The position numbers and the translations under genes were made by a program. The notes beneath the pieces were generated by a model. The model did no database searches. It saw only the letters and a list, made by a program, of their open reading frames with translations, and had not been told where the DNA came from. Shown one piece after another: positions 32,803 to 50,097 of a DNA stretch of 64,000 nucleotides. The stretch comes from Paenibacillus sp. cl123 (GTDB lineage Bacteria; Bacillota; Bacilli; Paenibacillales; NBRC-103111): the NCBI RefSeq assembly GCF_900101595.1, contig NZ_FMYY01000008.1, positions 59,539 through 123,538 on the forward strand. Direction: 5' to 3'. Numbering within the stretch: position 1 is the first letter of the stretch; every line of letters starts with the position of its first letter.

Positions 32803-32864
32803 GGACCTGGCCGATTTTGCCGACAGCTTCACAGAAGCTGTTGACAAACGGTCAGGTCTTTTTT
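32803..32864 (+). terminator. Terminator after metE
   Basis: GACCTGGCCG (32804-32813) pairs with CGGTCAGGTC (32849-32858) with one mismatch. A nested ACAGCTT/AAGCTGT stem lies inside, and six T residues follow. Apart from this and the palindrome near 32893, the 324-base gap before the next gene shows nothing else. Confidence 0.8.
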
Positions 32865-32892
32865 GTGGCATATATGGCTTTACAGCAGCAGA

Positions 32893-32904
32893 TAACACGT
32901 GTTA
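32893..32904. promoter_or_regulatory. 12-bp perfect palindrome upstream of the AraC-type regulator
   Basis: TAACACGTGTTA lies 87 bases before the regulator start. It could be an operator; no matching second copy was noticed. Confidence 0.3.
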
Positions 32905-32990
32905 ATATTCGTCGCATAGGGCAAAAAAGCGGAGCAGGCTGTTTTCTCGCGACTGGATGCCGAAGACGGTTGCCCGCGAAAGGAGACATC

Positions 32991-35228
32991 ATGAAGAAGA
33001 CCTGGTTTTATCGGCTGCTGTTCTCCTATTTTCCGATTTTTTTCAGCCTGACCTCGATCCTCGTTCTCGTTACCTTCCTGCTTCTGAGCGAGATGTCCCA
33101 GCGGGAGACGGCCAACGGGAATCAGCAGCTCGTCCGCCATCTGATGCAGCTGATCGACTATTCATTAAAAGAAACGGACAGCGCGCTCATCAAGGAGCTG
33201 GAAACCGACGAGAAGCTGAGGGGTTTCTTTCAAGGAGAGGGCGCAATCTCTTATTTCGATACCTATGAAATATCCAAACGGATTCATCAGATGGGGGGAC
33301 CCGACAGCCTGATCGATTCGATCTATTTGTACCGTTATGCGGATAACATGGTGCTGAGCACGAACACGTTCATGCCGCTCGAACGGTTCGGAGACCGGGA
33401 GTTTGCGGCCGGACGGGCGGACAGGGGGATGCTCTACGAGCTGTCGGGGCCGCGTACGTATATGGAATTTCAGGATCAGGAGCGTTACCCGGCATCCGTC
33501 GTCTCGATGGTGCGCAAATATCCGCTGCTGCAGGGCGGGCAAGGGCTGGTTGTCGTCAATATCAGCTTGGCCAAAATCGGCAAGCGGCTCGAAGAGCTGA
33601 CCGGTCCGGGCAGCTTCGTCGAGATTCGCGATGCCGGCGGCGCTGTCATCGCGGGGCCAGGGGGAACCGGCGAGAAATTGCCGGGGTCGACGTTATCCCG
33701 GCTCAGCTCGGATTATACGGGCTGGTCGTATACAGGCGGCGTGCATGACGATAATGTGTTCAAGTATGTGTCTCTGTTCTCCTATGTATGGATCGCGGCC
33801 AGCCTGATTGTGGTAATCGTCGGCACGGTATGGATGACCTATGTCACCCGCAGGAATTACAAACCGATCGAGGAAATTATGGACCGGATTCAGCTGTATT
33901 CGCAGAGCCGCAGCTCCAAGCTGTCCCGCAAGGGGCAGGATGAATTCAAATTCATCGAGCAGGCGCTGGACAGTTTGATCGACCAGTCGAATACGTATCA
34001 GAAAATGCATGAGGAAGATTCCATTTACCGCCGCCGGCATTTTTTTACGGAGCTGCTGGAAGGGAACCGGGCGATCGACCGGGAGGAATGGGAGCGGGAA
34101 ACGAAGCGTTTCGATCAGCCGGGCGCATTCCGCACGCTAGCCGTTGCCATCTATGAAATCGACAAGTATCCGGCCGTGCAGTCCAGCTATTCGCAGCGGG
34201 ATTTGTATTTGCTGAAATTCGTGCTGAACAGCGTGGTCAAGGAGCTGGCCGAAACCCATCGGGTCACGGTCTGGACAGAATGGACGGCCCAGCATCAGCT
34301 GACCGCTTTGTATCAGAACGCCCGCGAGGCGGACGAGGCGGAGGATGCGCTGCTAAGAGTCACCGGCGAGGCGCAGGCTTGGGTGAAGGACAATTTGGAG
34401 TTTACGGTAACGGTCGGACTCGGTTCCGCTGTAGACGATACGCTTCAGGTGCCGGAGACGTACGTGCAGGCCCGGCAGGCGTTGGATTTCAAGGCCAGCG
34501 CAGGACCGAACCGGGTCATTTCCTACCGGGATGCGCAGTCCGGCAACGGCGAGCTTTACCGGCAGCTTCCGCTGATCCGCAGCTTTGCCCGGGCATTCCG
34601 GACGGGGGATGAAAATTGGCGGGAGATGTTCCAGTCGGTGTTCCGGGAAGTGCGCGTCCAGCGTCTGCCCAGGGAGGAGCTGGTGCAGGTGCTGGGCACG
34701 TTCATCGATCATTTGTACCGCGAGATGGTGGAGCTTCCGCCTGATATGCAGGACGTATGGAAGAACGAGATCGTCGGAAAGCTGAATGAGCTGAGGGATA
34801 CGTTCGACTGGAGCGGGGAGATGGAAAGCCGGTTCGCCGCCATATTGGAGGAGTTCAGCGGCAGGCTGCGGGAGCAGCAGGAAAGCCGCAGCCACTACAA
34901 GCTGATCTGCGAGGTGAAAGACTATATCGACCGCGAGTACGCGAACCCGGACCTTTCACTGAACCAGTTGTGCGAGAAGTTCGGGATGAACGGCAAATAT
35001 GTAAGCCGTCTGTTTAAGGAAACGTTTGGCGAGAAGCTGGTCGATTATCTGGTCGGCGTCCGGATAGCCCAAAGCCGACGGCTGCTGGAGGAAACCTCCT
35101 TGTCGCTTAAGCAGATCGCCGCCGAGGTTGGTTATCTCCACGATATTTCGTATATCCGGGCCTTTAAGAAGGTCATGGGCACAACGCCGGGCGATTACCG
35201 CAAAAGCTATGAGAAAAGCGTCCTTTGA
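32991..35228 (+). CDS. Membrane-anchored AraC-family regulator with extracellular sensor
   Basis: The 745-residue protein has a first membrane helix at about residues 8-35 (FSYFPIFFSLTSILVLVTFL) and an outside loop of about 220 residues. A second helix lies near 258-285 (FSYVWIAASLIVVIVGTVWM), then a cytoplasmic linker and a C-terminal double helix-turn-helix (DLSLNQLCEKFGMNGKYVS and SLKQIAAEVGYLHDISYIRA). This layout is common in Paenibacillus next to LplABC-type importers. It probably senses an extracellular glycan or sugar and activates the downstream importer and the giant secreted protein. AAAGGAGA supports the ATG at 32991. Confidence 0.92.
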   Translation: MKKTWFYRLLFSYFPIFFSLTSILVLVTFLLLSEMSQRETANGNQQLVRHLMQLIDYSLKETDSALIKELETDEKLRGFFQGEGAISYFDTYEISKRIHQMGGPDSLIDSIYLYRYADNMVLSTNTFMPLERFGDREFAAGRADRGMLYELSGPRTYMEFQDQERYPASVVSMVRKYPLLQGGQGLVVVNISLAKIGKRLEELTGPGSFVEIRDAGGAVIAGPGGTGEKLPGSTLSRLSSDYTGWSYTGGVHDDNVFKYVSLFSYVWIAASLIVVIVGTVWMTYVTRRNYKPIEEIMDRIQLYSQSRSSKLSRKGQDEFKFIEQALDSLIDQSNTYQKMHEEDSIYRRRHFFTELLEGNRAIDREEWERETKRFDQPGAFRTLAVAIYEIDKYPAVQSSYSQRDLYLLKFVLNSVVKELAETHRVTVWTEWTAQHQLTALYQNAREADEAEDALLRVTGEAQAWVKDNLEFTVTVGLGSAVDDTLQVPETYVQARQALDFKASAGPNRVISYRDAQSGNGELYRQLPLIRSFARAFRTGDENWREMFQSVFREVRVQRLPREELVQVLGTFIDHLYREMVELPPDMQDVWKNEIVGKLNELRDTFDWSGEMESRFAAILEEFSGRLREQQESRSHYKLICEVKDYIDREYANPDLSLNQLCEKFGMNGKYVSRLFKETFGEKLVDYLVGVRIAQSRRLLEETSLSLKQIAAEVGYLHDISYIRAFKKVMGTTPGDYRKSYEKSVL

Positions 35229-35342: not shown

Positions 35343-35417
35343 GCCATTTGGTCCATGGCTGAATTCCGGTTAGCCGGGTCGTTTTGGCCAATCGGTTAGT
35401 TGAGCGAAACATGTAAA

Positions 35418-35447
35418 TTGCTCGAAATCGAAGGCCTGCGGTATAGT
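35418..35447 (+). promoter_or_regulatory. Candidate promoter of the importer operon
   Basis: TTGCTC (35418-35423), an 18-base spacer and TATAGT (35442-35447), about 58 bases before the binding-protein ATG. Weak -35 match, as expected for an activator-dependent promoter. Confidence 0.5.
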
Positions 35448-35504
35448 GCAATCAGGACGGCGGGCTGTACAACGATCACGATAAACGAGGGGAGCTTAAT
35501 CGAA

Positions 35505-37184
35505 ATGAGCATGAACAAGAAAAGGCAGCGCAGCATTCTAAAAGCAGGCATGACGGCGCTTGCGCTGACTGGAGTCATCGTCGCAGGCTGCAGCGCGGAG
35601 CCCAAAACTCCGGACGCTGCCGGGTCCAAGCCGCAGGGGCAAGGAGAGAAAGCGCAAACGCCGGAAGCGCGGGGCAGCATCACCGTTTCCATGTATGAGC
35701 GCAACAATATACCGCCGGAGGAAGGGAACTGGGACAAAAACCGCTGGACAGAGTGGGTCAACAAGCAGGGACCGGTTGATGTGAAATATATTACGGTGCC
35801 CCGCTGGGAATCGCTGCAGAAGTTCAACGCCCTGTTCGCGACTAACTCGGCGCCCGACCTGATTCTGGAGTACGATACCGGTTACCGCAACCAATGGTAC
35901 GCGCAGAAGCTGCTTATGCCGCTTGATGAGGTCATCGAGCAGCACAGCACCACGTACAAAGAGCTGATGAAGCAGTTCCCGCAGCTGAAGAAGCTGGGCA
36001 CGAAAGATGACGGCAAGCTTTATGAGATCGGCAAGGTTACGCCGCTGAATGCGAACCACCGGATTTATATCCGCGAGGATTGGCTGCAGAAGCTCAACCT
36101 GCCGATGCCGGCGACGACGGAGGAGCTGCTGCAGACAGCGAAGGCGTTCGCATCTCAGGACCCGGACGGCAATGGCAAGGCTGACACGTTCGGCTTGAAT
36201 CTGAGCGGCAACGGGGTTTCGATCCTGCAGCACATGTTCGGATTCGGCGAGGTTCAGTGGCGCTTCGAGGGCGACAAGTTTATTCACGAGTGGGACCGTC
36301 TGAAAGCTGCGACGGCGTTCCAGAAGCAATTGTTCGATGCGGGCGCAGTCGACAAAGATTTTCTTGCAGACAAAAACGGCGAGAAAGCGAAGCAGGACTT
36401 CATGTCAGGCAAGCTTGGCATGTATCTGCATCAGGAGCTGACTGACAAGGATTACGACGCGCTGAAGAAAAATGATGCGAAGGCGAAGCTGGCTATGCTG
36501 CCTCTGCCCAAGTCCGAATTCGGACAGTTTAGTCCGGTTGTGAGCAGCCCGATCCAGATGGTCGGAGCGATCAACGCGGGAGCGAAAAATCCGAAGGCCG
36601 TTATGCAGTATATTGACTTCATGATTAAGCCGGAGACGGCGCGTACGCTGGAGAACGGCCAGGAGGGCGTCCACTGGAGCAAAAATGAAGCAGGCTGCCC
36701 GAAGCCGATCGACGTCGAAAAAAATAAAAAGGAAATATCGTATACCGCTGATATGCGGATGATGTCGTCGTTGCTCCTGCTGGGCAAATGCTCGTTCCTG
36801 GAGCAGCGCGCCGGCGATACGGACACGCAAAAAACGCTGCGCCAGTTGGCGCTGGACGCCAATCAGGCCTATGTCAGCAAGGATCGTCCGATTCCGACGC
36901 TGAAGCCTGAATATTTGCCGGTGCTGCCTCAGGACCTGGCGCTTATCGTGAAAAATACCGAACAGCAGATAAAGGATGCATGGATGAAGGCTGTTGTGAG
37001 CGGGGCCGGCTATACGGCGGATCAGGCGGAGAAGGATACGAAAAGCATCTGGGAGAAGTCCGGCGGGCTGCGCGTCGATGAATTTTACGCCAAATGGTAT
37101 GAGGCAAATAAAGCGAACGCCTTTCTGCTGAAGGACCTGTACCAGTTCGGGGAAGATGCGGTGAAGCTGTACGGCAATAAATAA
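35505..37184 (+). CDS. LplA-type substrate-binding lipoprotein
   Basis: This 559-residue protein has a lipobox (LALTGVIVAGC, Cys near residue 27) and the large type-2 periplasmic binding fold common in LplA-like Paenibacillus proteins. Visible pieces are YERNNIPPEEGNWDKNRWTE, YIREDWLQKLNLPMPATTEE and DPDGNGKADTFGL, a calcium-loop-like segment. It should bind an oligosaccharide outside the cell and pass it to the two permeases behind it. No ATPase gene is linked. GAGGGGAG precedes the start. The ligand is unknown. Confidence 0.92.
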   Translation: MSMNKKRQRSILKAGMTALALTGVIVAGCSAEPKTPDAAGSKPQGQGEKAQTPEARGSITVSMYERNNIPPEEGNWDKNRWTEWVNKQGPVDVKYITVPRWESLQKFNALFATNSAPDLILEYDTGYRNQWYAQKLLMPLDEVIEQHSTTYKELMKQFPQLKKLGTKDDGKLYEIGKVTPLNANHRIYIREDWLQKLNLPMPATTEELLQTAKAFASQDPDGNGKADTFGLNLSGNGVSILQHMFGFGEVQWRFEGDKFIHEWDRLKAATAFQKQLFDAGAVDKDFLADKNGEKAKQDFMSGKLGMYLHQELTDKDYDALKKNDAKAKLAMLPLPKSEFGQFSPVVSSPIQMVGAINAGAKNPKAVMQYIDFMIKPETARTLENGQEGVHWSKNEAGCPKPIDVEKNKKEISYTADMRMMSSLLLLGKCSFLEQRAGDTDTQKTLRQLALDANQAYVSKDRPIPTLKPEYLPVLPQDLALIVKNTEQQIKDAWMKAVVSGAGYTADQAEKDTKSIWEKSGGLRVDEFYAKWYEANKANAFLLKDLYQFGEDAVKLYGNK

Positions 37185-37289
37185 AGGCCAGTGATAGGGA
37201 CAGGTCCGGTCGGCTGGGGCGAACGGACCTGTTGCCGTTCAAATCTTAGAGAATATGCGCTCAGGGCGGAGAGGAGAAGGAGAGACCTT

Positions 37290-38246
37290 ATGAAAATACA
37301 TGAAACGGCAGCCAACGATTTCAAGGAAAACATCCTGGTCCTTCGGACGCGCAGCCGCAGCCGGTTTCGCCGCAATGTGCCGCTGTTGCTGATGTTTATT
37401 CCCGTCATTGTTTTCTTCGTGCTGTTCCGCTATGTGCCGATGCTGGGCAATGTCATCGCCTTCAAGCATTACAATTTGATGCAGGGCATATGGGGAAGCC
37501 CTTGGGCGGGGCTGGACTATTTCCGGATGATGTTTTCCAATCCGCAGTCGCTCGACATTATTCGCAATACCTTCGTGCTGAGCCTGCTCAAGATCGTGAT
37601 CGGATTCCCGTTCCCGATCCTGATCGCGGTCATGCTGAACGAGGTTCGCCGGTCATGGTTCAAGCGCTCGGTGCAGACGCTGCTGTATTTGCCCCATTTT
37701 TTCTCCTGGGTCATCGTCGGCGGCATCGCCGTTACGCTGTTCGGCTCGCAGGCAGGTGCGGTGAATGCGGTTATCGCGTATTTCGGCGGGGAGCCGGTCC
37801 GCTTTCTGTATCAGACGGGCTCCTGGCTGGCGATTTTTTTCGGCTCGGGCATCTGGAAGGAAGCGGGCTTCTCGGCCATTATTTACTTGGCGGCGATCAG
37901 CTCGATCGATCCTTCGCTGTATGAAGCGGCCAGCATCGATGGCGCAAGCAAGATCAAGCAGGTCGGTTACGTCACCTTGCCGGGCATTCTCCCGGTGATG
38001 ACGCTGATGCTCATCCTGTCCATGGGCAGCGTGATGGAAGTTGGCTTCGATCAGGTGTACAACCTGCAGAACGCGGTCGTGTCCGACGTGTCGAGCGTCA
38101 TCAGCACCTATATTTATACGGTCGGGATTCAAGGCGGGATGTACAGCATGACGACCGCGATGGGGCTGTTCGAGGCCGTTATCGGCCTTGTGCTGGTTAT
38201 CGGCGCCAATCGTCTCGCCAAGCTGTTCGACCAGTCGCTATGGTAA
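37290..38246 (+). CDS. LplB-type ABC importer permease
   Basis: The 318-residue permease starts with a basic tail (TRSRSRFRRNVPLLLMF) and six helices. LplB/YtcP-type landmarks are MLGNVIAFKHYNLMQGIWGS and the EAA loop YEAASIDGASKIKQVGYVTL. The ATG at 37290 follows GAGGAGAAGGAGAG; the frame is open another 33 codons upstream without a better site. It pairs with the LplC-type permease 15 bases downstream. Confidence 0.92.
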   Translation: MKIHETAANDFKENILVLRTRSRSRFRRNVPLLLMFIPVIVFFVLFRYVPMLGNVIAFKHYNLMQGIWGSPWAGLDYFRMMFSNPQSLDIIRNTFVLSLLKIVIGFPFPILIAVMLNEVRRSWFKRSVQTLLYLPHFFSWVIVGGIAVTLFGSQAGAVNAVIAYFGGEPVRFLYQTGSWLAIFFGSGIWKEAGFSAIIYLAAISSIDPSLYEAASIDGASKIKQVGYVTLPGILPVMTLMLILSMGSVMEVGFDQVYNLQNAVVSDVSSVISTYIYTVGIQGGMYSMTTAMGLFEAVIGLVLVIGANRLAKLFDQSLW

Positions 38247-38261: not shown

Positions 38262-39140
38262 ATGAAGCTTTCGCGCAGTGAGAAATGGTTCTATGCCGTC
38301 AATGATACGCTTTTGTTTATCGCAGGCGTAAGCTGCCTCATTCCTTTGCTGAATCTGGCGTCGATTTCGCTCAGCGAATACGAAGCCGTCGCAGCGGGAA
38401 GGGTCGGGATATGGCCAGTCGGTTTTTCGCTCGAATCCTACAGGATGCTGATCGAAGGCACGCCGATTATGCGCACATTCCGCAACAGCCTGGTCATTAC
38501 CGGCTTCGGAATCGTGTTCAGCATGCTGTTTACGATTCTGGCCGCTTACCCGCTGTCCAAAGGGCATTTCTATGCGCGCCGGTTTTTCACCCTGGCCATC
38601 GTGTTCACGATGCTGTTCGGCATCCAGGCGATTCCGGCCTTCCTCGTCAACCGCGGACTCGGTATCGTCGACACGTATTGGGCGCTGTGGCTGCCGGGCT
38701 TGGTCAGCGCCTACAATATGCTCGTGCTGAAAGCGTTTTTCGAGCAAATTCCGGAAGAGATGAATGAAGCTGCCCAGATCGACGGGTGCAGCGAGTGGCG
38801 GCTGCTGTGGCAGATTGTGCTGCCGCTGTCCATGCCGGTGCTGGCGACGCTGACGCTGTTCTATGGCGTCGGGTATTGGAACTCGTTCCAAAGCGTGTTG
38901 ATTAATATCAACGACTCATCCAAATTCAATCTGGCCGTCCTGGTCCAAAATATGGTGGCCAACCAGTCGCTGCTGCAGAATCTGAACAATGTCCAGCCGC
39001 AGGAGGCCGAGGAGATGCTGACGCCGGAATCCATCCGGTCCGCAGGCATTATAGTCATGCTGCTGCCTTTGCTGGCGGTGTATCCGTTCCTGCAGAAATA
39101 TTTTGTCAAGGGCGTGCTGATCGGGGCAGTGAAGGGGTGA
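38262..39140 (+). CDS. LplC/YtcP-type ABC importer permease
   Basis: The 292-residue protein has six helices, MNEAAQIDGCSEWRLLWQI as the EAA loop and the typical C-terminus FVKGVLIGAVKG. A YtcP/LplC-like IPAFLVNRGLGIVDTYWALW segment is present. It completes an importer that depends on an ATPase encoded elsewhere. The start has AGGAGG upstream. The next gene, for a giant secreted protein, begins 170 bases later. Confidence 0.92.
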   Translation: MKLSRSEKWFYAVNDTLLFIAGVSCLIPLLNLASISLSEYEAVAAGRVGIWPVGFSLESYRMLIEGTPIMRTFRNSLVITGFGIVFSMLFTILAAYPLSKGHFYARRFFTLAIVFTMLFGIQAIPAFLVNRGLGIVDTYWALWLPGLVSAYNMLVLKAFFEQIPEEMNEAAQIDGCSEWRLLWQIVLPLSMPVLATLTLFYGVGYWNSFQSVLININDSSKFNLAVLVQNMVANQSLLQNLNNVQPQEAEEMLTPESIRSAGIIVMLLPLLAVYPFLQKYFVKGVLIGAVKG

Positions 39141-39310: not shown

Positions 39311-42300
39311 ATGTGGAAAAAAATGCATCGCACGGCGGCCAGACTGCTCGTCGGCTCGCTGCTCGCCGGACTGCTGCCGCTTCAGGCCGTCCCGGCTCTG
39401 GCCGCAGATACGCAGCCGCCGGGAACTCCGGCTAACCTGGAATCGGTCTGGCGGACAGAAGCGTCCGCGCAGCTGACCTGGTCGGTCCCGGCGGACGATA
39501 CCGGTGTGACCGGCTATGACGTTTACCGGGACGGGGCGCTGGAGGCAAGCGTCAGCGGAGCTCCGCTGTACCGGGCGGAGGGACTGAACCCCGGGACGGA
39601 TTACGTTTTCACCGTGAGGGCCAAGGATGCGGCCGGTAACGTGTCGGCCCCCAGCACGCCGGTCACCGTGAATCTGGATGAGCTGGACCGGGGACTCTGG
39701 ACGGTCAGCGCTTCGCATAATAGCGGAAGCGCTGCACGGATGGCGATCGACGCGCTGCCGTCCTCCCGCTGGACCAGCGGCGCGAATCAGGCGTCCGGCA
39801 TGTGGTTTCAGATCGATACCGGACCCGGAGCGAAGTCGTACCACAAGCTGGTCATCGACGCGACCGGCTACAGCGGCGATTACGCCCGCGGATATTCGGT
39901 AGCCGTATCCGAGGATGGGGAAAACTGGAGCAGCCCGATCGCTTCCGGCAACGGCAGCGTACTGATCCAGGCCGATTTTGCCGAGCAGACGGCCCGTTAT
40001 CTGCGCATTACGCTGACCAAGGGAGTCGGTAATTATTGGTCGATTCAAAACTTAAAGCTGTTCGGTTCCCATACGGATGACCTCGAAGCGCCGGCTGCGC
40101 CGGGTGGCCCTGCCGCAGCTTCCGTAACGGATACGGAGGCATCGCTGACCTGGAGCCCCAGCGCCGACAATGTAGCTGTGCTCGGGTATGAGGTGTACGC
40201 CGGCGCCGAATATGCCGGCTTCACCCGCCAGCCGGCGTTAACGCTGAAAGGGCTGGCTCCCCGGACCGCCTACACGTATCAGATAAGGGCTGTCGATATG
40301 GCTGGGCATAAGTCGTCCTACAGCGAGCCGGTCGCTTTCACCACACAAGGCGCGCTGGAACGCGCATTGTGGTCGATCACCGCTTCGCATGGCGCAGCCA
40401 GCGTTTATTCGGCCATTGATGGCAGCGCTTCCACGAGATGGTCGAGCGGTGCGGCGCAGGCGGCGGGCATGTGGCTGCAGCTCGACACGGGCCCGGGAGG
40501 CAAAGCCTATAACAAGCTGCTGCTGAATGCGACAGGGTCCAATGGCGATTACCCGCGCGAGTTTCAGTTGACCGTTTCGGAGGATGGCGAGAGCTGGAGC
40601 GCCCCGATCGGGACCTTTACCGGAACTTCGGCTATGGTCCAGGCCGTTTTCCCGGAGCAGACGGCGCGCTTCGTCCGCCTGACGCTGACGAAAGGGGTCG
40701 GCAGCTACTGGTCGGTCCATGAGCTGAACCTATACGGACTGCCGGAGCCGGATGAGAACCCGCCGACGACGCCGGGAAACCTCACCGTTAAAAAAGTTCT
40801 GGATACCCAGTTCGACGCGTCGTGGGACGCTTCCACGGACGATATCGGCGTAGCGGGCTACAACATCTACCTCGATTCGGTCAAGGTCGTCTCCACGACT
40901 CCGGCCGTTCGCGCCCACCGCTTCACCGGCCTGACCCCTAATACGGCTTATTCGCTTGTTGTGAAGGCAAGGGACGTATACGGCAACGAATCCGCTCCTG
41001 CGGCTCTGACAGTCACAACCCAGCCGGTCATGGAGCTGCCGCTGATCGCGAAATACGAGATGGAGCCGCAGGCTTCGGACCCTGCCGCGATCTGGAGCAC
41101 GCACCGTCCGGAGCAGCCGGAGAAGGCCGGTTCTTTCCAAGCGCCGGCCGCTTACGCGCCGGGCCGTCCAGGCAGCGGGCAGGCGCTTGTGCTGAGCGGG
41201 AGCGATCAGGCGACGATCACCCAGCCGGGCCGGCTGAACCGCATATCGTCCGCTTTTACGATATCGGCCTGGATCAAGCCGGATGATCTGAACGGCTACC
41301 AGCCCATCGCCTCCAAGCGGGATGCCAACTGGAAAGGTACGACCTTTTATCTTGGCCTTCAGGGCAACAAGCTTTATTTCGGCTCCGACTATGGCGAGAA
41401 ATGGTACAACTGGTCATTCGCAGCTCCGGAGCTGGCGGCGGGCCAGTGGTCCCACGTGGCCGCCGTCTTCGAGAAATACGAAGGGGCATGGCTTTATGTA
41501 AACGGCAAGCTGGTCGGCCAGGTGCCGGCGGGCAGCGTATTTACGGATCTGCTGCCCAATGAGCTGCCGGTTATGCTGGGAACGGAATGGCACTTCGACA
41601 ACACCACCCGCACGATGGTCAAGTACGGCTACCGGGGAGCGGTCGATTCGCTGCGGATGTATGCCGCGCCGCTCACGCAAGCCCAGATTCAAGCGGATAT
41701 GAACAATACGATTATGACGCGTCCCGCAGCCGACAGCGACTTCACCGCTCCGACCAAATACACCACGCTGCGGCTGGTTCGCTTCGATACGCCGACGGGG
41801 CTGTTTACGAAGGGCAGCGCCAAGATTCATCAGAACGCCGCCCGTCGAGAGGGACCGGACGCGGTCGATTGGCCGCGGGTTCAGCTGCATATTCCGCAGG
41901 ATAATGGCGCCGGGACGGTTCGGACCGTCGAGCCGTTCGCATCCGGCCCGGAATATAAAACGGAGCTGCTGCTTCAGCAGCCGCCCGCCAACATGTCCAT
42001 CGTGCAGCAGCCGTATGACAATGTGCTGTCGCCCGGCAATCACTGGCTCCGGGGAGTTGCCTGGCGCTGGGGGCAGACGAATGTGTATACGACGGACCGG
42101 ACCGCGCGCAGCTGGACATGGGATTACGAGCTGTGGACCTTTCCCGTCAAAATTGCCGGCGCTTCCGCCGGCGCGGTCCGCAGCGTTATCCTGAAAAACG
42201 ACGGCCAAGAAATCTATAACAGCGGGACGCGGACGCTGGATTCCCTGACCCTGCTCCTGCCGCAAAATGAAAGCGGCAAGCCTTACGAGCTATGGGTGGA

Positions 42301-45300
42301 CGGCCGGGGGCCGGTGCGATTCGATGCGGGTCTGGCGCCGATCGTTCCCGGAGATCCGAAGGATATTCCGCTGCAGATCGATCTAACGGTACCGGGGCCG
42401 GGCCCGGCGATTACGGTAACCGGCATGGACGGTCCCGAGACGTTCCCGCATGAGGCGGCATGGAACGCCGATGTGCAGGCGCTGTCCGGAGCGAAGCCGC
42501 CGGCGCCGGCTTTTGAGCCTGACCCTTCCGCTGCCGCTCCGATCTCGCGGCATGTCGGAACGGCGGTGCCGCGCTCGCCGGAGTCGGTCAACTTCGTCTA
42601 TTTGCCCCACGGGATGAGCTCGGGCAGTTACTATCACTCCGAGCACAGCGAGATTGCCCGGCAATATGCAAGCGTCGGCACTGTGGATCAATATGCCGAT
42701 TACGTAGCGGATACCGGCTATGACCGGGTATATGAATTCAGTACGTTTGCGGACCCGGCAGCTGCCGGCAGTCACGAGCATATGGCCCAAGCGCTGGCGG
42801 AAAGGGGCGTGCAGCTCGGGCTCATTCCCCGGACGGACTGGGATGTGATTAGTACGTCAAGCCAGAATTTGCCGTTCTACAGCTCTTATATCGCCGACTA
42901 TCACGCTCCGCTGTACCGGGAGCTCCAGCTCGGCCTTCAGCGGCTGAGCCGCTACCCCAATGTGGCGGGAATCAGCCTGGGCGCGGATAACGCCGCCTAC
43001 GCCCAATACTGGGACTGGGCGCCGCCGCATCCGAACCGGCCGTGGGGCCGGGCGTTCGCGCCCTTCCAGACCGGGGCCGGCGAGCCGCTGACGACGCCGA
43101 TCGCGCCAAGCCTGCAGGGACAATATTCGCTGAAAACACATGAATATTGGGCGGGCAGCGTGAGACCGTTCCTTGACTACATCGGGCGGTACAACGAGAC
43201 GTTCAGGGAGTACGGATATTTTGCGCGAGCCGCTGCCGAGGTAAACGCCGCCTACACGACGACAACCGGATCGTACGGAAGCTCGCCCGGAGTTGGCGGA
43301 CGGGGCGGCTGGCTGTGGGCGACTATTCCCGGCAAGGAGATGCACGAGCAGCTGCCTGTCCAGACGGCTTACGACTGGAATGAGCTGAATGCCTCCAAGC
43401 CGCTCCATGCGGTGTCGCTGATCGACAAGCTGCGGAGCTATGCGCCGAATAAGCCGACCTGGGCGATTCAGGACGATTTTTCTCTCTTCTTCGGCAAGGC
43501 CGACCGCGAGAAGACGTACGCGATGACCTTGACGCGGGGCATCCAGGCGATCGGCACCAATGTGCTTCCCAACGACCGGGGGCCGCTCGCCCATCCGCAG
43601 ATGATCGGCGAACAGAAAGAGCTGTACGCCTGGATTCACAAGTACGGCGGGGCGTACGCGCTGACGGAGCCGACCCCTTCGATCGGCATCATGTATGTGA
43701 ACGATCAGGCGCTGCTGCGGGGAATTGTCGGAGGCGAAAGCCCGTCGGAGGAGCAGCTGCTGCAGGGCTCCCATGAGGGCAAAGTTTCGGAGGCGCTGTT
43801 CCTGACGCATGCGGCCGGCTGGCCGTCCAAGATCATCACGCCGGAGGAATTGAAGCGAGGGCTGCCCTCCTCGATCAAGGCGATTCTGTTAGTCGGTCTG
43901 AACGAATTCGATGCAAGCTGGCACTGGTATGACGGGCTCGTGTCGGAGCTGCAAAGCTTCGTCGATCAGGGAGGACGTATCCTGAAGGACAGCGAATCCG
44001 TATCTCCCGTGGCTTCCGCCGAGACGGGGATGCAGGTGGCGTCTTATGTGATCCAGAGCAATACGGATCAGACGAACCTGCTCTTAAGCCGCAATACGGC
44101 CAATATCGCCAAGCTGCGGACAGCGATGGCCGGCGTGCCGAAGCCAGCGGCTTACTCGGACAGCAGCACGGTATGGGCCGTGCCGACCCGGGCCGGCGAC
44201 ACGGAGTACGTTACCGTGCTAAATGAACGGCATGATGCGGCGGCAGGTGAAAGCCAGCATTTGCTCGGCCAGACCGCGGCGCTGCAGTGGAATACGGCAA
44301 GGCCGATCTACGATGTCCGGCAGGGCCGCAAGCTGACGCCAGCCGAGGCTGCGCAGGTCGACCTGCAGACGAACGGCTTCCAATGGTATGCCCTCCCGCC
44401 GGCCGAGGTGACGGCTCCGGGGCTGACGGTAACGGAGGCGGAGTCCGGCTTCTACGAGGCGTTCGCGACGATCCGCAATCCGGAGGCGATGGCCGGCATC
44501 CCGCTTGAACTGACGGTCACCCATACGGTTAGCGGAGACTCGGCAACCGTGTATACGGCGACTGGCTTGAGCGCCAAGCTGCCCTTGCACAAACAGGACG
44601 CTCCCGGCATTTACACCGTGAAGGCGAAGGAGCTGCTCAGCGGCTTGGAAACAACCGTCGAAGTCAACGTTTTGTCCGCAGCCGCCGATCCTGAGCCTGC
44701 GGTCCGGCTGCACAAGCCGGAGCATATCCGGGCATTCGCCGCTCGCTCCGAGGTGCCGCTGACGATCGCGCTGACAGCGGCGCAGCAAGCCGATCCTGCC
44801 ATCTCCGCTCAGGCGGAGCGGCTGGTGCAGCATTTTGCGCAGCAGGGACGGGACGTAGCGCTCGGGCTCGCGGAGCCAGGCGGGGTGGTGAAGAGCTTGC
44901 AGACCTATAAGTCCATGACCTCCTATCCGCAGTGGCTGACGTTGGACTCGGATCTGGTGCTGCTGGGCACTTCCTCCACCAACGTGCTGCTCCTTGATCA
45001 AGCCCGGGGTTATCTGCTGCCGGAGCATGGAACGGGGATCACGGCAGGCCATGCTGCGGTCAGTCTGGCGAATTCTCCCTTTGTTGGGGAACGTCATGCG
45101 CTGAATATCGTAGCGGCCGACGCGGGCGGCGTGACAGCCGCCGTAGACGCCCTGCTTGGACTTGCGCCGCCTGGGCCCGGCATCGTTAAGCTGGCCGGCG
45201 TAACGCGGGCAACGCCAACGTCCGTCGCCTTGTCCTGGGCCGCCGATCCGGAGGCTGCGGAGTACCGGGTAGAGCGGCGCAGCGGAGGAAGCTCCGCTTG

Positions 45301-46156
45301 GCAGACCGCTGCGGCTTCCGTAGCGGGGACGGCTTATACGGACGAGGGACTTGCTCCCGGCGTGTTCTATACGTACCGGATCACAGCCGTCAACGGGTCC
45401 GGTCAAGGCCCGGCCGGCGATCCGCTTTACGTCGTAACTCCCGGCGGTGCTGCATCTGCCGATACGGCGCCGCCAACGGCACCCGGGGAGCTGTCCGTAC
45501 TCGGGCGGACGGCAAACAGCGTCAGTCTCGGCTGGACCGCCTCCAGCGACAATATCGGAGTGGCCGGCTACGACGTTTACCAGGGCGCGCTCAGGCTGAA
45601 TGAGCAGACGGTGACGGGGGTCACCTACACGGTATACGGACTGCTTCCGGCTACGTCGTATACCTTTACGGTAAAAGCGAGGGATGCGGCGGGCAATGAA
45701 TCGCCAAGCTCCATGTCCGTCACGGCAGCGACCTATGCCGAGCCGGGGGGAGCGCCCTACAAGCTGGAGCGGACAGGGTGGACGGCTTCAGCCTCCCACC
45801 AGCCCGCCAAAGCTGCGAACGCTGTGGACGGCAAACCGTCCACCCGCTGGGACACGGGGGTTCATCAAGTCAGCGGACAATGGTTTCAGCTCGACCTCGG
45901 CGGCTTGCGCACATTCAATGGCCTCGAAGCGGATACTGCCGGCAGTGCCTATGACTATCCGCGCAGCTATGAAGTTTATGTCTCGGCAGACGGCGTGAAT
46001 TGGGGGACGCCTGCCGCCGCCGGCGCAGGCAAAGCGCTGCTGACTGTCCGGTTTCCTGCACAGACGGCCCGTTACGTCAAACTGGTGCAGACCGGCGCAG
46101 CGGGCAATTTCTGGTCGATCCACGAGCTGAACCTTTTGGAGTTTCCGCCGTTGTGA
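39311..46156 (+). CDS. Giant secreted multimodular protein with FN3, F5/8C, LamG-like domains and a putative glycan-active barrel
   Basis: A 2281-residue protein with a signal peptide (LLVGSLLAGLLPLQAVPALA). Approximate order: FN3 (36-124), F5/8 type C (127-257), FN3 (258-346), F5/8C (347-480), FN3 (481-572), LamG/concanavalin-like (575-800) and an unrecognised beta-rich part (810-1075). Next comes a barrel-like region (about 1087-1497, with YLPHGMSSGSYYHSEHSEIA, VAGISLGADNAAYAQYWDW and PTWAIQDDFSLFFGKADRE). A flavodoxin- or GH42 middle domain-like segment follows (1497-1590), then a BcsB-like alpha/beta segment (about 1796-1952), two FN3 (1956-2145) and a final F5/8C (2150-2281). Carbohydrate-binding modules around a barrel suggest a polysaccharide-degrading enzyme feeding the adjacent importer. 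The catalytic family was not recognised. The ATG at 39311 follows GAGAGGAG. No LPXTG or SLH anchor is seen. Confidence 0.85.
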   Translation: MWKKMHRTAARLLVGSLLAGLLPLQAVPALAADTQPPGTPANLESVWRTEASAQLTWSVPADDTGVTGYDVYRDGALEASVSGAPLYRAEGLNPGTDYVFTVRAKDAAGNVSAPSTPVTVNLDELDRGLWTVSASHNSGSAARMAIDALPSSRWTSGANQASGMWFQIDTGPGAKSYHKLVIDATGYSGDYARGYSVAVSEDGENWSSPIASGNGSVLIQADFAEQTARYLRITLTKGVGNYWSIQNLKLFGSHTDDLEAPAAPGGPAAASVTDTEASLTWSPSADNVAVLGYEVYAGAEYAGFTRQPALTLKGLAPRTAYTYQIRAVDMAGHKSSYSEPVAFTTQGALERALWSITASHGAASVYSAIDGSASTRWSSGAAQAAGMWLQLDTGPGGKAYNKLLLNATGSNGDYPREFQLTVSEDGESWSAPIGTFTGTSAMVQAVFPEQTARFVRLTLTKGVGSYWSVHELNLYGLPEPDENPPTTPGNLTVKKVLDTQFDASWDASTDDIGVAGYNIYLDSVKVVSTTPAVRAHRFTGLTPNTAYSLVVKARDVYGNESAPAALTVTTQPVMELPLIAKYEMEPQASDPAAIWSTHRPEQPEKAGSFQAPAAYAPGRPGSGQALVLSGSDQATITQPGRLNRISSAFTISAWIKPDDLNGYQPIASKRDANWKGTTFYLGLQGNKLYFGSDYGEKWYNWSFAAPELAAGQWSHVAAVFEKYEGAWLYVNGKLVGQVPAGSVFTDLLPNELPVMLGTEWHFDNTTRTMVKYGYRGAVDSLRMYAAPLTQAQIQADMNNTIMTRPAADSDFTAPTKYTTLRLVRFDTPTGLFTKGSAKIHQNAARREGPDAVDWPRVQLHIPQDNGAGTVRTVEPFASGPEYKTELLLQQPPANMSIVQQPYDNVLSPGNHWLRGVAWRWGQTNVYTTDRTARSWTWDYELWTFPVKIAGASAGAVRSVILKNDGQEIYNSGTRTLDSLTLLLPQNESGKPYELWVDGRGPVRFDAGLAPIVPGDPKDIPLQIDLTVPGPGPAITVTGMDGPETFPHEAAWNADVQALSGAKPPAPAFEPDPSAAAPISRHVGTAVPRSPESVNFVYLPHGMSSGSYYHSEHSEIARQYASVGTVDQYADYVADTGYDRVYEFSTFADPAAAGSHEHMAQALAERGVQLGLIPRTDWDVISTSSQNLPFYSSYIADYHAPLYRELQLGLQRLSRYPNVAGISLGADNAAYAQYWDWAPPHPNRPWGRAFAPFQTGAGEPLTTPIAPSLQGQYSLKTHEYWAGSVRPFLDYIGRYNETFREYGYFARAAAEVNAAYTTTTGSYGSSPGVGGRGGWLWATIPGKEMHEQLPVQTAYDWNELNASKPLHAVSLIDKLRSYAPNKPTWAIQDDFSLFFGKADREKTYAMTLTRGIQAIGTNVLPNDRGPLAHPQMIGEQKELYAWIHKYGGAYALTEPTPSIGIMYVNDQALLRGIVGGESPSEEQLLQGSHEGKVSEALFLTHAAGWPSKIITPEELKRGLPSSIKAILLVGLNEFDASWHWYDGLVSELQSFVDQGGRILKDSESVSPVASAETGMQVASYVIQSNTDQTNLLLSRNTANIAKLRTAMAGVPKPAAYSDSSTVWAVPTRAGDTEYVTVLNERHDAAAGESQHLLGQTAALQWNTARPIYDVRQGRKLTPAEAAQVDLQTNGFQWYALPPAEVTAPGLTVTEAESGFYEAFATIRNPEAMAGIPLELTVTHTVSGDSATVYTATGLSAKLPLHKQDAPGIYTVKAKELLSGLETTVEVNVLSAAADPEPAVRLHKPEHIRAFAARSEVPLTIALTAAQQADPAISAQAERLVQHFAQQGRDVALGLAEPGGVVKSLQTYKSMTSYPQWLTLDSDLVLLGTSSTNVLLLDQARGYLLPEHGTGITAGHAAVSLANSPFVGERHALNIVAADAGGVTAAVDALLGLAPPGPGIVKLAGVTRATPTSVALSWAADPEAAEYRVERRSGGSSAWQTAAASVAGTAYTDEGLAPGVFYTYRITAVNGSGQGPAGDPLYVVTPGGAASADTAPPTAPGELSVLGRTANSVSLGWTASSDNIGVAGYDVYQGALRLNEQTVTGVTYTVYGLLPATSYTFTVKARDAAGNESPSSMSVTAATYAEPGGAPYKLERTGWTASASHQPAKAANAVDGKPSTRWDTGVHQVSGQWFQLDLGGLRTFNGLEADTAGSAYDYPRSYEVYVSADGVNWGTPAAAGAGKALLTVRFPAQTARYVKLVQTGAAGNFWSIHELNLLEFPPL

Positions 46157-46339: not shown

Positions 46340-46407
46340 GAGAACAGACCGCGGAGCTTCGCTGGTTATTTTCTTCATGATCGGGAATGGACACAAAGGA
46401 GATTGCA

Positions 46408-47109
46408 ATGAAACAGCGTAAAAGGAAGACGGAAAAGTCGGTTAAACGAGCGGTCGGGCGTCTGCTGCGTCTGCTGGCGCTTGCAGGGTTAATGGGATGT
46501 ACGACGTTTCTGGTCGTTAATGAATATGTGCTTCAATCAGGCGATGCCTATATTTTGCCGAAAGACGAGCTGCCGCAGGTTGAAGCCGCGATCGTGCTCG
46601 GCGCATCGGTTTACTCCAATGGGAAGGTTTCGGATATTCTTCGGGACCGGCTCGACACGGCCTATGACTTGTATGTGTCGGGGCTTGCAAGCCGCATCAT
46701 CGTCAGCGGGGATCACGCCAGCGATGATTATGATGAAGTGAATGCGATGAAAAATTACTTGATGAAGAAAGGAGTGAGGGACGCGCACATCTTCATGGAT
46801 CATGCCGGCTTTAATACTTATGACAGCATGTACCGGGCTCAGGCCGTATTTCAAGCGCAGAACCTGATTATCGTCACCCAGGATTATCATCTGAAAAGAG
46901 CCATTTATGTAGCCCGTGCGCTCGGAATTGAGGCGGTCGGGGCCGCTTCCGACAAGCAGGCTTACCGCGATATCCGCAAATACGAAGCCAGGGAGGTGCT
47001 TGCCAGAGTGAAGGATTTCCTCAATGTTCACTTCATGAAGCCGCCCCCGGCGCAGCTCGGGGAGCCGATTCCCCTCAGCTCGGACGGCAGGCTGACCAAT
47101 GACAAATAA
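46408..47109 (+). CDS. SanA/YdcF-family (DUF218) membrane-anchored protein
   Basis: The 233-residue protein has a basic N-terminus and one membrane helix (LLALAGLMGCTTFLVVNEY). The DUF218 fold follows with VEAAIVLGASVYSNGKVSDI, LASRIIVSGDHASDDYDE, FNTYDSMYRAQAVF and LIIVTQDYHLKRAIYVARA. In E. coli SanA is linked to envelope integrity and vancomycin resistance at high temperature; the reaction is unknown. AAGGAG supports the ATG at 46408 over the one at 46387. It is monocistronic. Confidence 0.9.
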   Translation: MKQRKRKTEKSVKRAVGRLLRLLALAGLMGCTTFLVVNEYVLQSGDAYILPKDELPQVEAAIVLGASVYSNGKVSDILRDRLDTAYDLYVSGLASRIIVSGDHASDDYDEVNAMKNYLMKKGVRDAHIFMDHAGFNTYDSMYRAQAVFQAQNLIIVTQDYHLKRAIYVARALGIEAVGAASDKQAYRDIRKYEAREVLARVKDFLNVHFMKPPPAQLGEPIPLSSDGRLTNDK

Positions 47110-47209
47110 CCGGATATTCATGCATAGCTGGTTGAAATGGATTTTACTGGTGCTCTATCCGCTGCAATCATGTATACTTATTTCGATTATGTGACTGGAG
47201 GATGAGTGG

Positions 47210-48349
47210 ATGGAAACCTTGAACAGGCCGATGGGGATCGGCGCGATCCTAGACAAAAGCTTTCAGTTGTACCGCAGTCATTTTACCGTTGCTTTTTTAT
47301 TGCTGCTGCTGTTTGCGGGACCTTTTTACATCATTCAAAATGTGCTGTTTTATAATCTTTCGACGTTGTCGTTTTTCCCGGAGAGCGGAACTTCCATCGC
47401 CGATTCCTTCGAGCTGTTTTTGAATGGAGGCGCGGCCAGCGCGGAAGAGGCAAGTCCCGGCCTGCTGCTGTTTACCTTTCTCGTGATGCCGCTTTACCTT
47501 TTGCTGCTGGTGCCGGTATTGATGTCCTCCCAGCTTTTGCTGGTCAAAACGGCGCTGCAGGGCGGGGAAGTCCGCTTCGGCGAAGTGCTGCGCGGGGCGT
47601 TCGTGCGCTACGGCAGACAGGTCGGCAATACGCTGCTGTACGGGCTGATCATATTCGGACTTATGTTTGTCATCTGGATAGCGCTTGTCCTGGCGCTTGT
47701 CCTCATCGGCTCGTTGACGGTGGGACTTGGGGCCGGTTTTCTGGCGCTAGGCGGCGACCCGTTCGGGGGAAGCATCGCATTTATCGTGATCGTGGCTGTC
47801 GTATACATACTGACTGGATTTGCGATTTCAGCCTGCTCAAGCTATTTCATAATCCGCTTCGGCTTCTACCTGCCGATCGTGACGCTGGAAGATGAAGGCG
47901 AGGCGATCCGGGGCAGCTGGCGGCTGACGCGGGGAAGCTTCTGGCGCATCTTTGCCGTATTTTTTATTCTGACTGTCATTTATACGGTGTTTTCTCTCGG
48001 AGTTTATGCCTTGCTGATCGCCGTCTTCAAAATGTCTCTGATCGGACAATTGATCAACACCGTCCTTATTCTGCTGATCGCCCCGCTGTACACCATCCCG
48101 TACGGCGTGATTTACTTCGACCTTCGCGTGCGCCATGAAGGCGCTGATCTGGAGCGGTATATGCAGACAACGGCTGTCCCGCAACAGGCGTGGGGTACGG
48201 GCGGAGCCGGGTATGCAGACGCTTCGGCAGCTCCGGAAGATGCTTCAGCAGGGCGTATGCCGGCAGGGGAACGGGCGGAGCAAGCGGCAGCCTCCTCTCC
48301 CGCCTCGGAGCCGACGAAGCCGCAGGGGGCCGTACCGAGCGATGACTGA
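47210..48349 (+). CDS. Polytopic membrane protein of unknown function, first gene of the MoxR/DUF58 cluster
   Basis: The 379-residue protein opens METLNRPMGIGAILDKSFQLYRSHF, followed by about six hydrophobic segments and a C-terminal tail of about 50 residues rich in Ala, Pro and Glu. This start is common in Firmicute membrane proteins annotated with a glycerophosphodiester phosphodiesterase membrane domain (YciC-like). The role is unknown. GGAGGATGA precedes the start. It overlaps the DUF4129 gene by 8 bases, so it belongs to the downstream operon. Confidence 0.75.
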   Translation: METLNRPMGIGAILDKSFQLYRSHFTVAFLLLLLFAGPFYIIQNVLFYNLSTLSFFPESGTSIADSFELFLNGGAASAEEASPGLLLFTFLVMPLYLLLLVPVLMSSQLLLVKTALQGGEVRFGEVLRGAFVRYGRQVGNTLLYGLIIFGLMFVIWIALVLALVLIGSLTVGLGAGFLALGGDPFGGSIAFIVIVAVVYILTGFAISACSSYFIIRFGFYLPIVTLEDEGEAIRGSWRLTRGSFWRIFAVFFILTVIYTVFSLGVYALLIAVFKMSLIGQLINTVLILLIAPLYTIPYGVIYFDLRVRHEGADLERYMQTTAVPQQAWGTGGAGYADASAAPEDASAGRMPAGERAEQAAASSPASEPTKPQGAVPSDD

Positions 48350-48980
48350 TGCCGGGCTGCAAGCCGACAAAGAAAAGCTGCAGGAGATTCTCTCCCGCGA
48401 CGAGTATGCGGCTTACGAGCGCGGCGGAGCGAACCCGGTGATGGATTGGCTGGAGCGGCTTTGGCAGGGCCTGCTTGATCTGTTTCCCGATATGGACCTG
48501 CCCCCGGGGACGCCGAAGCTGCTCGCCTACGGGCTGCTGGGCTTATTATTGATCGCGCTCGCTTCGGTTATCGTCTGGCTGGTCCGCAGCATGATCCTGA
48601 TGCGCCGGAGCCGCCGGCCGAGCGTCTTCCGCTCTGCGGCCGAGCTGGGCATGTCGTCGGCCGCTCATCTGGAAGAGGCGCGGCGATGCGCTGACGAAGG
48701 GGCATACCCGGAAGCTGTGCGCCGGGCCTTCCTGGGGCTGCTGCTGCTGCTGGACGAGCAGGGATGGATTCGCGCCGAGAAGTGGAAGACGAACCGCGAA
48801 TACGCAAACGAGCTGTCGGAGCGGGCGCCTGGGCTCGCGGAGCCGTTTCGGGAAGGGGCCGCTTTCTTCGAGCGCGTCGTCTATGGCGGAGCCTCCGCGT
48901 CTGCCGCCGATTATGACCGCATGCGCAAGCTCGCCGAGGCGGCAAGGGAAGGAGGCGATCGCTCTGCTGAAGCGAAATAA
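48342..48980 (+). CDS. DUF4129 domain protein
   Basis: The 212-residue protein has one central helix (LLAYGLLGLLLIALASVIVWLV) and a C-terminal DUF4129 segment. The latter has SSAAHLEEARRCADEGAYPEAVRRAFLGLLLLL and KTNREYANELSERAP followed by FFERVVYGGASASAADYDRM. DUF4129 is found at the C-terminus of transglutaminase-like membrane proteins and as a separate gene in MoxR/DUF58 clusters; its biochemistry is unknown. The start overlaps the preceding gene by 8 bases and the DUF4350 gene follows directly. Confidence 0.85.
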   Translation: MTDAGLQADKEKLQEILSRDEYAAYERGGANPVMDWLERLWQGLLDLFPDMDLPPGTPKLLAYGLLGLLLIALASVIVWLVRSMILMRRSRRPSVFRSAAELGMSSAAHLEEARRCADEGAYPEAVRRAFLGLLLLLDEQGWIRAEKWKTNREYANELSERAPGLAEPFREGAAFFERVVYGGASASAADYDRMRKLAEAAREGGDRSAEAK

Positions 48981-50093
48981 GCGGCAGCTGGCGCTGCTGC
49001 TCAGTATCATCGCGTTTCTGAGCGTCGGCTATTTCCTTGTCCGGCCCAAGCTGCCTGATTATACGCCTTACGTCTCCTCCTCGCCGGCGGCGGACGGAAC
49101 CAAGGGACTGTATACGCTGCTGGAGGAAAAAGGCGAGCCGGTCGGGGCGTGGCGCAAGCCTTGGAGATCGCTGCCGGACACGCAGGGACATACGCTGGTC
49201 GTCATCCAGCCGTCGTTCCTGACCGAGCAGGACCGCACGGCTGCGCTGCGGTGGGTTGAGCGCGGCAATGATCTGCTGCTGTTCCACAGCTCGCCGCCGC
49301 CGTGGGCGCCATTCGAGTTCCTCGAAGCGAACAGCGCCGTGGCCGATGAGCCGGCCGTTCCTATCGCGGATCTGCAGCGTCCGGAGCGGGCTTCATGGAC
49401 GGCCGCTGTCAGATCCGGCATGCGCATCGAGGCGGGCGAGGGTATCGAGCCCCTTCTGCAGGATAAGCAAGGCTTTATCGCCGCCCGCTCCTCGCATGGG
49501 AGCGGGACGGTCACCATGCTGCTCGTGCCCGAGTGGCTGGAGAACGGCTCGCTGCTGAGCCAATCGCATTTTGAGCTGCTGTGGCCTTATTTGCCCCGGG
49601 ACCGCGAGGCGATCTGGTTCGATGAGTATCACCATGGGCTGCAGGACAAGCCGGGACTGCTGGCCGTGTATCCCGGGTGGCTGCTGGCGGTGCTGGCCCA
49701 GCTCGCGGCGGCGGCCCTGCTGTGGCTGTGGCTGAAGGCCGTCCGCTTCGGACCCGCGTACACGCCCCGGGCCTGGACGGTCAGACGCGGGGACGAAACG
49801 CTGCTCGCAGCCGCCGGCTGGTATGAGCGCCAAGAGCTGGCGCGGGATGCCCTGATGCATCAGGAGGCGTATATCCGCAGCCTGCTGCGGGAGAAATGGG
49901 GCGTCAGAACGGATGCGACGGACAGCCAGGCGCTTGGCGCGGCCAAGCTCCACGGAAACAAGGAGGACGCGGAGCTATTGGCCGGACTGCTGGCAGCGTT
50001 CCACAGCGCCCGCAGCTCCGCTGTCTATAGGTCGAAGCAGCTGGTCCAGGACAGCCGCAGGGCTGATGAATTGATACGCAGACTGGAGAGGAA

Positions 50094-50097
<4 letters not shown>
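48913..50097 (+). CDS. DUF4350 domain protein (start uncertain)
   Basis: The product has a first helix (LALLLSIIAFLSVGYFLV), an outside domain with DGTKGLYTLLEEKGEPVGAWRKP and a second helix near the C-terminus (LLAVLAQLAAAALLWLWLKAV), which is the DUF4350 layout. The start is unclear. An ATG at 48913 has no ribosome site. A strong GGAAGGAGG at 48949-48957 is followed in frame only by ATC (48958) and CTG (48964, 48967). A CTG or ATC start would give KRNKRQ right before the first helix, which looks natural. The gene overlaps DUF4129 upstream and the MoxR gene by 4 bases downstream. The cluster role is unknown. Confidence 0.82.

Follow-up and report, generated by a model that had tools for sequence, protein, structure and literature searches.

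Beta-galactosidases of glycoside hydrolase (GH) family GH42 consist of a barrel (PF02449) followed by a GATase-like trimerisation domain (PF08532), and a GH42-type barrel on the same trimerisation scaffold has been described for GH164 (Bs164) and for a trimeric GH5 mannosidase (Op5Man5), whose sequence similarity to GH42 is insignificant according to the two reports (PMC8233224, PMC7105311). Here we describe a gene of Paenibacillus sp. cl123 that lies in a 64,000-nucleotide stretch of contig NZ_FMYY01000008.1 (referred to as the window, whose positions are used throughout) and encodes a 2281-residue secreted multimodular protein. Its core of ~1150 residues (800-1950), situated between a LamG-like module and the fourth FN3 module, appears to have the same order as GH42, barrel then GATase-like domain. 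The reading that we favour, with somewhat more confidence than doubt, is that this core represents a narrow, uncatalogued family in which the active site of a GH42-type scaffold has been remodelled, and that the protein probably acts outside the cell as a glycosidase feeding an adjacent importer. The gene and the parts of its product are:

39311..46156, + strand: whole gene, 2281-residue secreted multimodular protein (translation of an uninterrupted open reading frame)
39311..39403, + strand: putative Sec signal peptide, residues 1-31 (by eye; it ends in ALA, followed by AD)
39413..41023, + strand: FN3, F5/8C, FN3, F5/8C, FN3, residues 35-571 (Pfam; borders by eye)
41198..41692, + strand: LamG-like module (Laminin_G_3), residues 630-794 (Pfam, E 3e-23)
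41702..42544, + strand: probably beta-rich region, residues 798-1078 (strands in a low-confidence AlphaFold2 (AF2) model)
42563..43666, + strand: putative GH42-like (beta/alpha)8 barrel, residues 1085-1452 (global profile alignment; extent by eye)
43667..44110, + strand: GH42M/GATase-like (trimerisation-type) domain, residues 1453-1600, aligned part ~1456-1561 (hhalign)
44402..44677, + strand: Ig/FN3-like beta-sandwich, residues ~1698-1789 (AF2 model, VIA-align)
44699..45160, + strand: alpha-beta domain of the GH67 N-domain/BcsB/S-layer-anchor type, residues ~1797-1950 (VIA-align, AF2)
45173..46129, + strand: FN3, FN3, F5/8C, residues 1955-2273 (Pfam; first border by eye)

In Pfam searches with E values up to 10, no match was obtained to the whole of residues 800-1950, to 800-1068 or to 1068-1700, and residues 1701-1950 gave two matches only, both at chance level (E 0.15 and 0.51). 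At this threshold the GH42 barrel family PF02449 was unmatched in 800-1950 and in 1068-1700, as was PF14871 (GHL6/GH151) in the core; PF00728 (GH20) was likewise unmatched in the core by Pfam, which also gave no family for the beta-rich region 798-1078. NCBIfam had no match to the core, a phmmer search of the PDB sequences returned one chance match (E 1.6) and the profile hidden Markov model (HMM) none, and the only hit in PHROGs, to a tail fibre (E 0.068), was taken as chance. A literature search for the protein or its kind yielded no title pointing to either. In these searches the barrel thus had no clear match in any characterised GH family with the same module order, in agreement with a previous interpretation (the sequence-only reading) that had placed a catalytic-looking barrel of no assignable family at residues ~1087-1497. 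The catalytic-looking, uncatalogued core stands; its barrel extends rather from ~1085 to 1452, judged by eye, and the core is not without kin, being linked by profile to GH42-type enzymes, firmly in its GATase-like domain and moderately in its barrel. We regard the protein as a real, uncatalogued secreted enzyme candidate, whose GATase-like domain is homologous to that of GH42-type enzymes and whose barrel probably is as well.

The PF08532-type GATase part escapes a plain Pfam scan and was detected by profile-profile comparison only. GH42-like templates were collected with a PF02449+PF08532 protein (L055) as the query, which had been chosen from a core-HMM search of 104 genomes, where it matched at the GATase positions with an E value of 0.06. 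Against 27-30 diverse GH42-like proteins, barrel plus GATase reached an hhalign probability of 94.7-94.9%. With 30 GH42-like rows the end of the barrel together with the GATase part (residues ~1407-1561) gave an E value of 5.9e-8, and the GATase part alone 2.9e-7 (probabilities overall 93-95%), bearing out the GH42 middle domain-like segment of the sequence-only reading. None of 100 column shuffles did as well in either case, the score being 69.8 for barrel plus GATase (shuffle maximum 28.6) and 58.8 for the GATase part alone (shuffle maximum 25.1). When the eight closest relatives of L055 served as the template, the GATase part matched at 93.2%; an HMM of the GATase part only matched L055 at E 0.009, and the best pairwise score to the 30 templates was 74, with 200 shuffles tried on 10 templates reaching at most 71. 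Other template sets gave lower values for the GATase part (GHL6 19.3%, a 3-row GH42 set 5.2%).

Some results count against this kinship. The E value of 0.06 that singled out L055 is no better than that of a chance match at overlapping positions (L054, E 0.044), and a 45-residue frame (E 0.006) scores beside L055 with the GATase-only HMM. Omission of the closest L055 subfamily lowers the probability to 14.6% for GATase alone and to 64.7% for barrel plus GATase, so that this subfamily carries much of the GATase signal. Judged by eye, the weak hits L054, L108 and L109 appear to be chance matches, namely an aldo/keto-reductase-like protein, a multidomain protein with a dockerin-like end and an alpha/beta-hydrolase-like protein. 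Taken together, these comparisons link the GATase-like domain firmly to GH42-type enzymes and indicate that a GH42 trimerisation-type (GH42M/GATase-like) domain is present after the barrel.

For the barrel itself, the eight beta/alpha units can be fitted by eye to residues 1085-1452. A global profile alignment anchored at the start of the GATase part gave Z scores of 4.5 and 4.6 (two gap settings) with 30 GH42-like rows, with none of 60 shuffles as good in either setting and a Z of 0.2-0.3 for the reversed template. In the same test GHL6 reached Z 1.5 and 0.9 (7 and 9 of 60 shuffles as good) and GH20 1.3 and 1.3 (7 and 6 of 60). These two settings were picked after seeing a test with four settings and 25 shuffles, in which Z was 4.0, 2.5, 2.8 and 1.6 for the GH42-like rows, 2.8, 1.3, 1.6 and 0.7 for GHL6 (whose template had been cut too late) and 1.2, 0.0, 1.2 and 0.3 for GH20; three comparator families only were used. 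Both of the latter families had been considered as nearest kin of the barrel, GH20 because of an LGADN string, and were rejected on these Z scores together with hhalign probabilities of 0.2% (GH20) and 0.0% (GHL6). In three of five GH42-type sets (these three overlapping one another) the best local match of the barrel lies at most 6 positions from the diagonal set by the GATase part.

The evidence for the barrel is opposed by the dependence on gap setting just given and by the local comparison, in which the barrel alone matched 30 rows at 1.8% (E 0.027, 2 of 100 shuffles as good) and the best match lay 104 positions off the diagonal with the 3-row GH42 set and 69 with the 8-row closest-subfamily set. 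Structure prediction and a fold search, which had been proposed along with the sequence-only reading, speak against it too and left the fold unconfirmed: the AF2 model of residues 800-1950 (5 sequences) had a mean predicted local distance difference test (pLDDT) value of 38 and was usable only for ~1698-1950, a model of 1083-1455 alone had a mean of 32 and lent the barrel fold no support, and the best Foldseek match of the latter had an E value of 0.043. The Foldseek list contained GH29, GH13, GH5_18, GH1 and GH39 at probabilities of 0.69-0.96 over short stretches, which we did not count as evidence, and the VIA-align list of the 800-1950 model was filled by the C-terminal domains and hence uninformative on the barrel. 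Neither AF2 run thus yielded a usable barrel, so that its fold and active site are inferred; the same holds for the catalytic roles, glycosidase activity and product uptake considered below. The weak local signal, the two off-diagonal sets of five and the restriction to three comparator families would also fit a barrel of another lineage that merely precedes a GATase domain common with GH42. We consider such an origin improbable, since the global alignment runs colinear as expected and is better than those with GHL6 and GH20. On the whole, there is moderate support from the profiles for a GH42-like barrel.

The positions on which an active site might be built are:

42986..42988, + strand: Asp1226, invariant, at the column of the GH42-like acid/base Glu (conservation, global alignment)
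43373..43384, + strand: D1355-W-N-E1358, an invariant DxxE at the proposed end of strand 6 (conservation)
43472..43477, + strand: Asp1388-Asp1389, invariant, just past the GH42-like nucleophile Glu position (conservation, strand profile, global alignment)

As aligned, both catalytic glutamates of GH42 are absent. The acid/base column at the end of strand 4 holds Glu in 30 of the 30 GH42-like rows and Asp1226 in the core, according to the inferred global alignment, and the place of the nucleophile Glu at the end of strand 7 is taken by Ile1386 or Gln1387, the latter position being Gln in nine of ten rows and Leu in one. Since the alignment places either of two residues at the nucleophile, the pairing of strand 7 is uncertain, which weakens our interpretation. 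Five acids (D1226, D1355, E1358, D1388 and D1389) are invariant in all ten rows, the protein of the window included. With Asp1226 at the acid/base column and no acid at the nucleophile position, the canonical Glu/Glu pair of clan GH-A appears to be lost and several invariant acids kept. By its catalytic positions as aligned, the core is not a member of GH42, and because the catalytic Glu pair is unpreserved, assignment to a known family is impossible.

Strand profiles give a mixed picture of this assignment. With Glu left out, the nucleophile-strand profile has its best position in the whole protein at residue 1387 (score 7.6, reached by 12 of 500 core shuffles), and with Glu included 1387 is still the best of the core (106 of 500 shuffles as good). 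Three points speak against it: residue 272, in an FN3 module, nearly ties with 1387 (7.5 vs 7.6), the profile with Glu has its whole-protein best at residue 2000, and the acid/base-strand profile has its optimum at Glu1142 (7 of 500 shuffles), or at 1852 without Glu, and not at Asp1226. Seven of the 16 invariant Asp/Glu of the barrel fall into the proposed strand-end intervals, which were set by eye after seeing the alignment and comprise 64 of 366 residues (Fisher p 0.011); for all invariant residues of the barrel the corresponding p is 0.08.

Two different catalytic arrangements could be drawn from the same invariant acids. One is a retaining alpha-glycosidase similar to GH151/GHL6, in which D1226 (strand 4) would be the nucleophile and E1358 (strand 6) the acid/base, a layout as in the GH151 alpha-L-fucosidase ALfuk2, whose catalytic residues D154 and E235 lie at the ends of strands 4 and 6, respectively, and which also has a Rossmann-fold domain (PMC10154630). 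Both residues are invariant in the ten rows, and the GHL6 and GH42 proteins of Paenibacillaceae share a scaffold, as they match each other at 99.5% (hhalign; 18 GHL6 proteins against the 3-row GH42 set). Nevertheless we judge this arrangement unlikely: the barrel finds GHL6 neither with hhalign nor in the global test, PF14871 is unmatched, D1226 and E1358 fall into gaps of the global alignment with GHL6, and D1226, compared by eye, occupies the place of the GH42 Glu, two residues past the Asp of GHL6. (GHL6 as such is widespread in Paenibacillaceae: at E <= 0.001, 52 of 59 genomes have PF14871 matches, one of them as many as 17.) The other arrangement is an inverting or epoxide-type, alpha-acting enzyme that uses the D1355-x-x-E1358 dyad in the manner of GH71/GH99, and to this we give very little credence. 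GH71 is reported to employ a conserved DxxE dyad within its (beta/alpha)8 barrel, and GH99 an ExxE dyad (PMC12394665), and DWNE is invariant in ten of ten rows; DxxE strings are however common by chance, and the Pfam scan, the sole comparison made, gave no link to GH71 or GH99.

The core is narrowly distributed in the genomes searched. Within the family, nine of 104 genomes carry it, the own genome among them; it was also found in ten of 392 drawn from the order (a set overlapping that of the family) and, by HMM, in one of 398 drawn from the phylum, which is the own genome, the core being absent from the 397 others; the single case among eight genomes of a second family is a genome already counted in the order set. 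A scan of genome contigs for short exact peptides found four loci, of which one, in Paenibacillaceae bacterium CAVE-418, was new, so that the total comes to ten distinct genomes, own included, plus this one named contig. Searches of IMG/VR (by protein and by alignment) and of plasmids (tblastn) yielded no relatives. The copy in G038 begins near a contig end, with two stops in the BLAST match and an HMM match that starts beyond them. A contig of G042 (L135) encodes a 1712-residue secreted multidomain protein that is GH59- or GH30-like by eye and has carbohydrate-binding module (CBM) and dockerin-like parts. Six homologs are 64-87% identical to the protein of the window in the barrel and 68-90% in the GATase part, with 52-87% in LamG and 35-75% in the fourth FN3 (module borders for this comparison partly by eye).

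Directly upstream of the gene and on the same strand are a regulator and the components of an importer:

32817..35228, + strand: AraC-type regulator (HTH) with a GGDEF_2-like segment (Pfam, NCBIfam)
35400..37184, + strand: solute-binding protein, SBP_bac_1, lipobox VAGC by eye (Pfam)
37191..38246, + strand: permease, BPD_transp_1, best NCBIfam match UgpA, below cut-off; presumably of the LplB type
38262..39140, + strand: permease, BPD_transp_1, NCBIfam GlcU and UgpE, below cut-offs; which we take to be of the LplC type

Pfam thus recovers the AraC-type regulator and the Lpl-type importer that had previously been seen to adjoin the gene, and the layout of a lipoprotein solute-binding protein and two BPD permeases beside it is conserved. 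In five other genomes the homolog is likewise preceded by orthologous genes for the binding protein, LplB and LplC, at 65-95% identity (L011; L012, identical with L023; L013, identical with L017; L014; L016). L020 has a 66% identical binding protein upstream and, on the opposite side, remoter permeases (41 and 37%), L022 has distant permeases only, L018 has none of the importer genes in its 19.6 kb, and L019 and L021 have contigs too short for a judgement. Among other genes nearby, the window continues downstream with a row (46387-51029, +) of DUF218, GPDPase_memb, DUF4129, DUF4350 and MoxR-type AAA genes. A GH43 gene and a second solute-binding protein gene (L011:154-2653, +) lie directly upstream of one of the orthologous clusters, and just downstream of another homolog (L017:1067-6589, -) a protein of 1841 residues with SLH, GDPD, CBM9 and 3-keto-disaccharide hydrolase domains is encoded.

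Conservation and neighbourhood bear on whether the barrel is an enzyme at all. A degenerate GH42-type barrel kept as a non-catalytic, glycan-binding scaffold would suit a protein so rich in binding modules, with no Glu at either catalytic position of GH42 in the inferred alignment. Yet few parts of the protein are conserved as well as barrel and GATase, seven of the 16 invariant acids of the barrel fall at the proposed strand ends (by-eye intervals, as given above) and the importer is associated in the five other genomes, and we hold such a loss of activity to be rather improbable.

A candidate partner, protein X (~620 residues), is encoded near three of the homologs:

L014:2775-4718, + strand: protein X homolog
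L017:16033-17877, - strand: protein X homolog
L020:12011-13759, - strand: protein X homolog

In L014 (648 residues) and L017 (615 residues) it lies between the genes for the binding protein and LplB, with 53% identity between the two proteins; the X homolog of L020 has a frame that ends 36 bases ahead of the open frame of the GH42-like gene. At >=50% identity X occurs in seven of 104 genomes, the core in nine and both in five (Fisher p 2.7e-5). The query was taken from one of these five, G057, where X was noticed by its position, and without it both occur in four of 103 (p 2.2e-4). With a looser cut (E <= 0.001) X is in 31 of 104 genomes and overlaps with six of the nine (p 0.019, or 0.044 without G057); all these p values ignore the relatedness of the genomes. 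The window's own genome has no X match. Protein X matches no Pfam or NCBIfam family and has chance matches only in the PDB (E 2.1, 2.2 and 0.073); by eye it bears some likeness to (alpha/alpha)-toroid lyase-type proteins.

In the favoured interpretation, residues 1085-1561 would form a GH42-type scaffold that has diverged strongly, in which a (beta/alpha)8 barrel precedes a GATase-like domain that would be the counterpart of the GH42 trimerisation domain. The Glu/Glu pair would have been replaced, with Asp1226 for the acid/base and Gln1387 (Leu in one relative) for the nucleophile, and the protein is most likely still a glycosidase, which would work with Asp1226 and one acid of strand 6 (Asp1355, Glu1358) or strand 7 (Asp1388, Asp1389). 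The F5/8C, LamG and FN3 modules would hold the enzyme to an insoluble or matrix polysaccharide, and the adjacent binding protein and permeases would import the oligosaccharides set free. More tentatively, and with less than even confidence, one may envisage the first case of a new GH family with a GH42-type trimeric scaffold and Asp-based chemistry, possibly with a changed anomeric preference or inversion, that acts together with protein X in several of the relatives.

The remaining parts of the protein agree largely with the sequence-only reading, which had described a secreted protein of 2281 residues with at least five FN3, three F5/8C and one LamG-like module. The open reading frame is uninterrupted and starts with a signal peptide recognised by eye, and Pfam finds five stretches of fn3, three of F5_F8_type_C and one of Laminin_G_3, all far above cut-off. 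An alternative in-frame ATG at 39287 would add eight residues, and the stretch GAGAGGAGAG ahead of the ATG at 39311 is a possible ribosome site. The numbers of modules differ among homologs (five F5/8C and six FN3 in L018, two and two in L020, three and three in L014), and LamG stands directly ahead of the core in these three as well. At the C-terminal end of the core, the Ig/FN3-like sandwich (~1698-1789) was modelled by AF2 with block means of pLDDT of 44-79 and gave VIA-align Z scores of 9.1-9.9. The alpha-beta domain at ~1797-1950 (block means 35-84) matched an S-layer anchoring domain (Z 11.5), BcsB (Z 11.0) and the N-domain of GH67 alpha-glucuronidase (Z 10.9). The BcsB-like segment of the earlier reading is hence upheld at the level of the fold and not as a sequence family, as no BcsB or GH67 family match to 1797-1950 beyond chance was obtained in Pfam.

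If correct, the interpretation would add a glycosidase family with an altered catalytic pair to a well-known scaffold, and would show how the active site of clan GH-A can be rebuilt. Binding modules and the adjacent importer suggest a complex polysaccharide as the substrate. The core (~1085-1600, or 800-1950) is small enough to be expressed, and the five invariant acids offer themselves as direct mutants.

Among the known systems, the GH67 N-domain, BcsB and the S-layer anchoring domain have their fold in common with residues ~1797-1950, without a match of sequence family. In GH67 the N-domain is placed ahead of its barrel, the matched part being chain residues 19-123, whereas the like domain comes after the barrel in the core. 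GH151/GHL6 enzymes combine a barrel with a Rossmann-type domain, as the core appears to do, but without significant similarity of the barrel. GH164 and the trimeric GH5 mannosidases, going by their descriptions, keep Glu/Glu on strands 4 and 7, which the core apparently does not. GH42 shares with the core the order of barrel and trimerisation-type domain, and differs in that the core is set in a CBM-rich secreted architecture and is extended by Ig-like and GH67N/BcsB-like domains.

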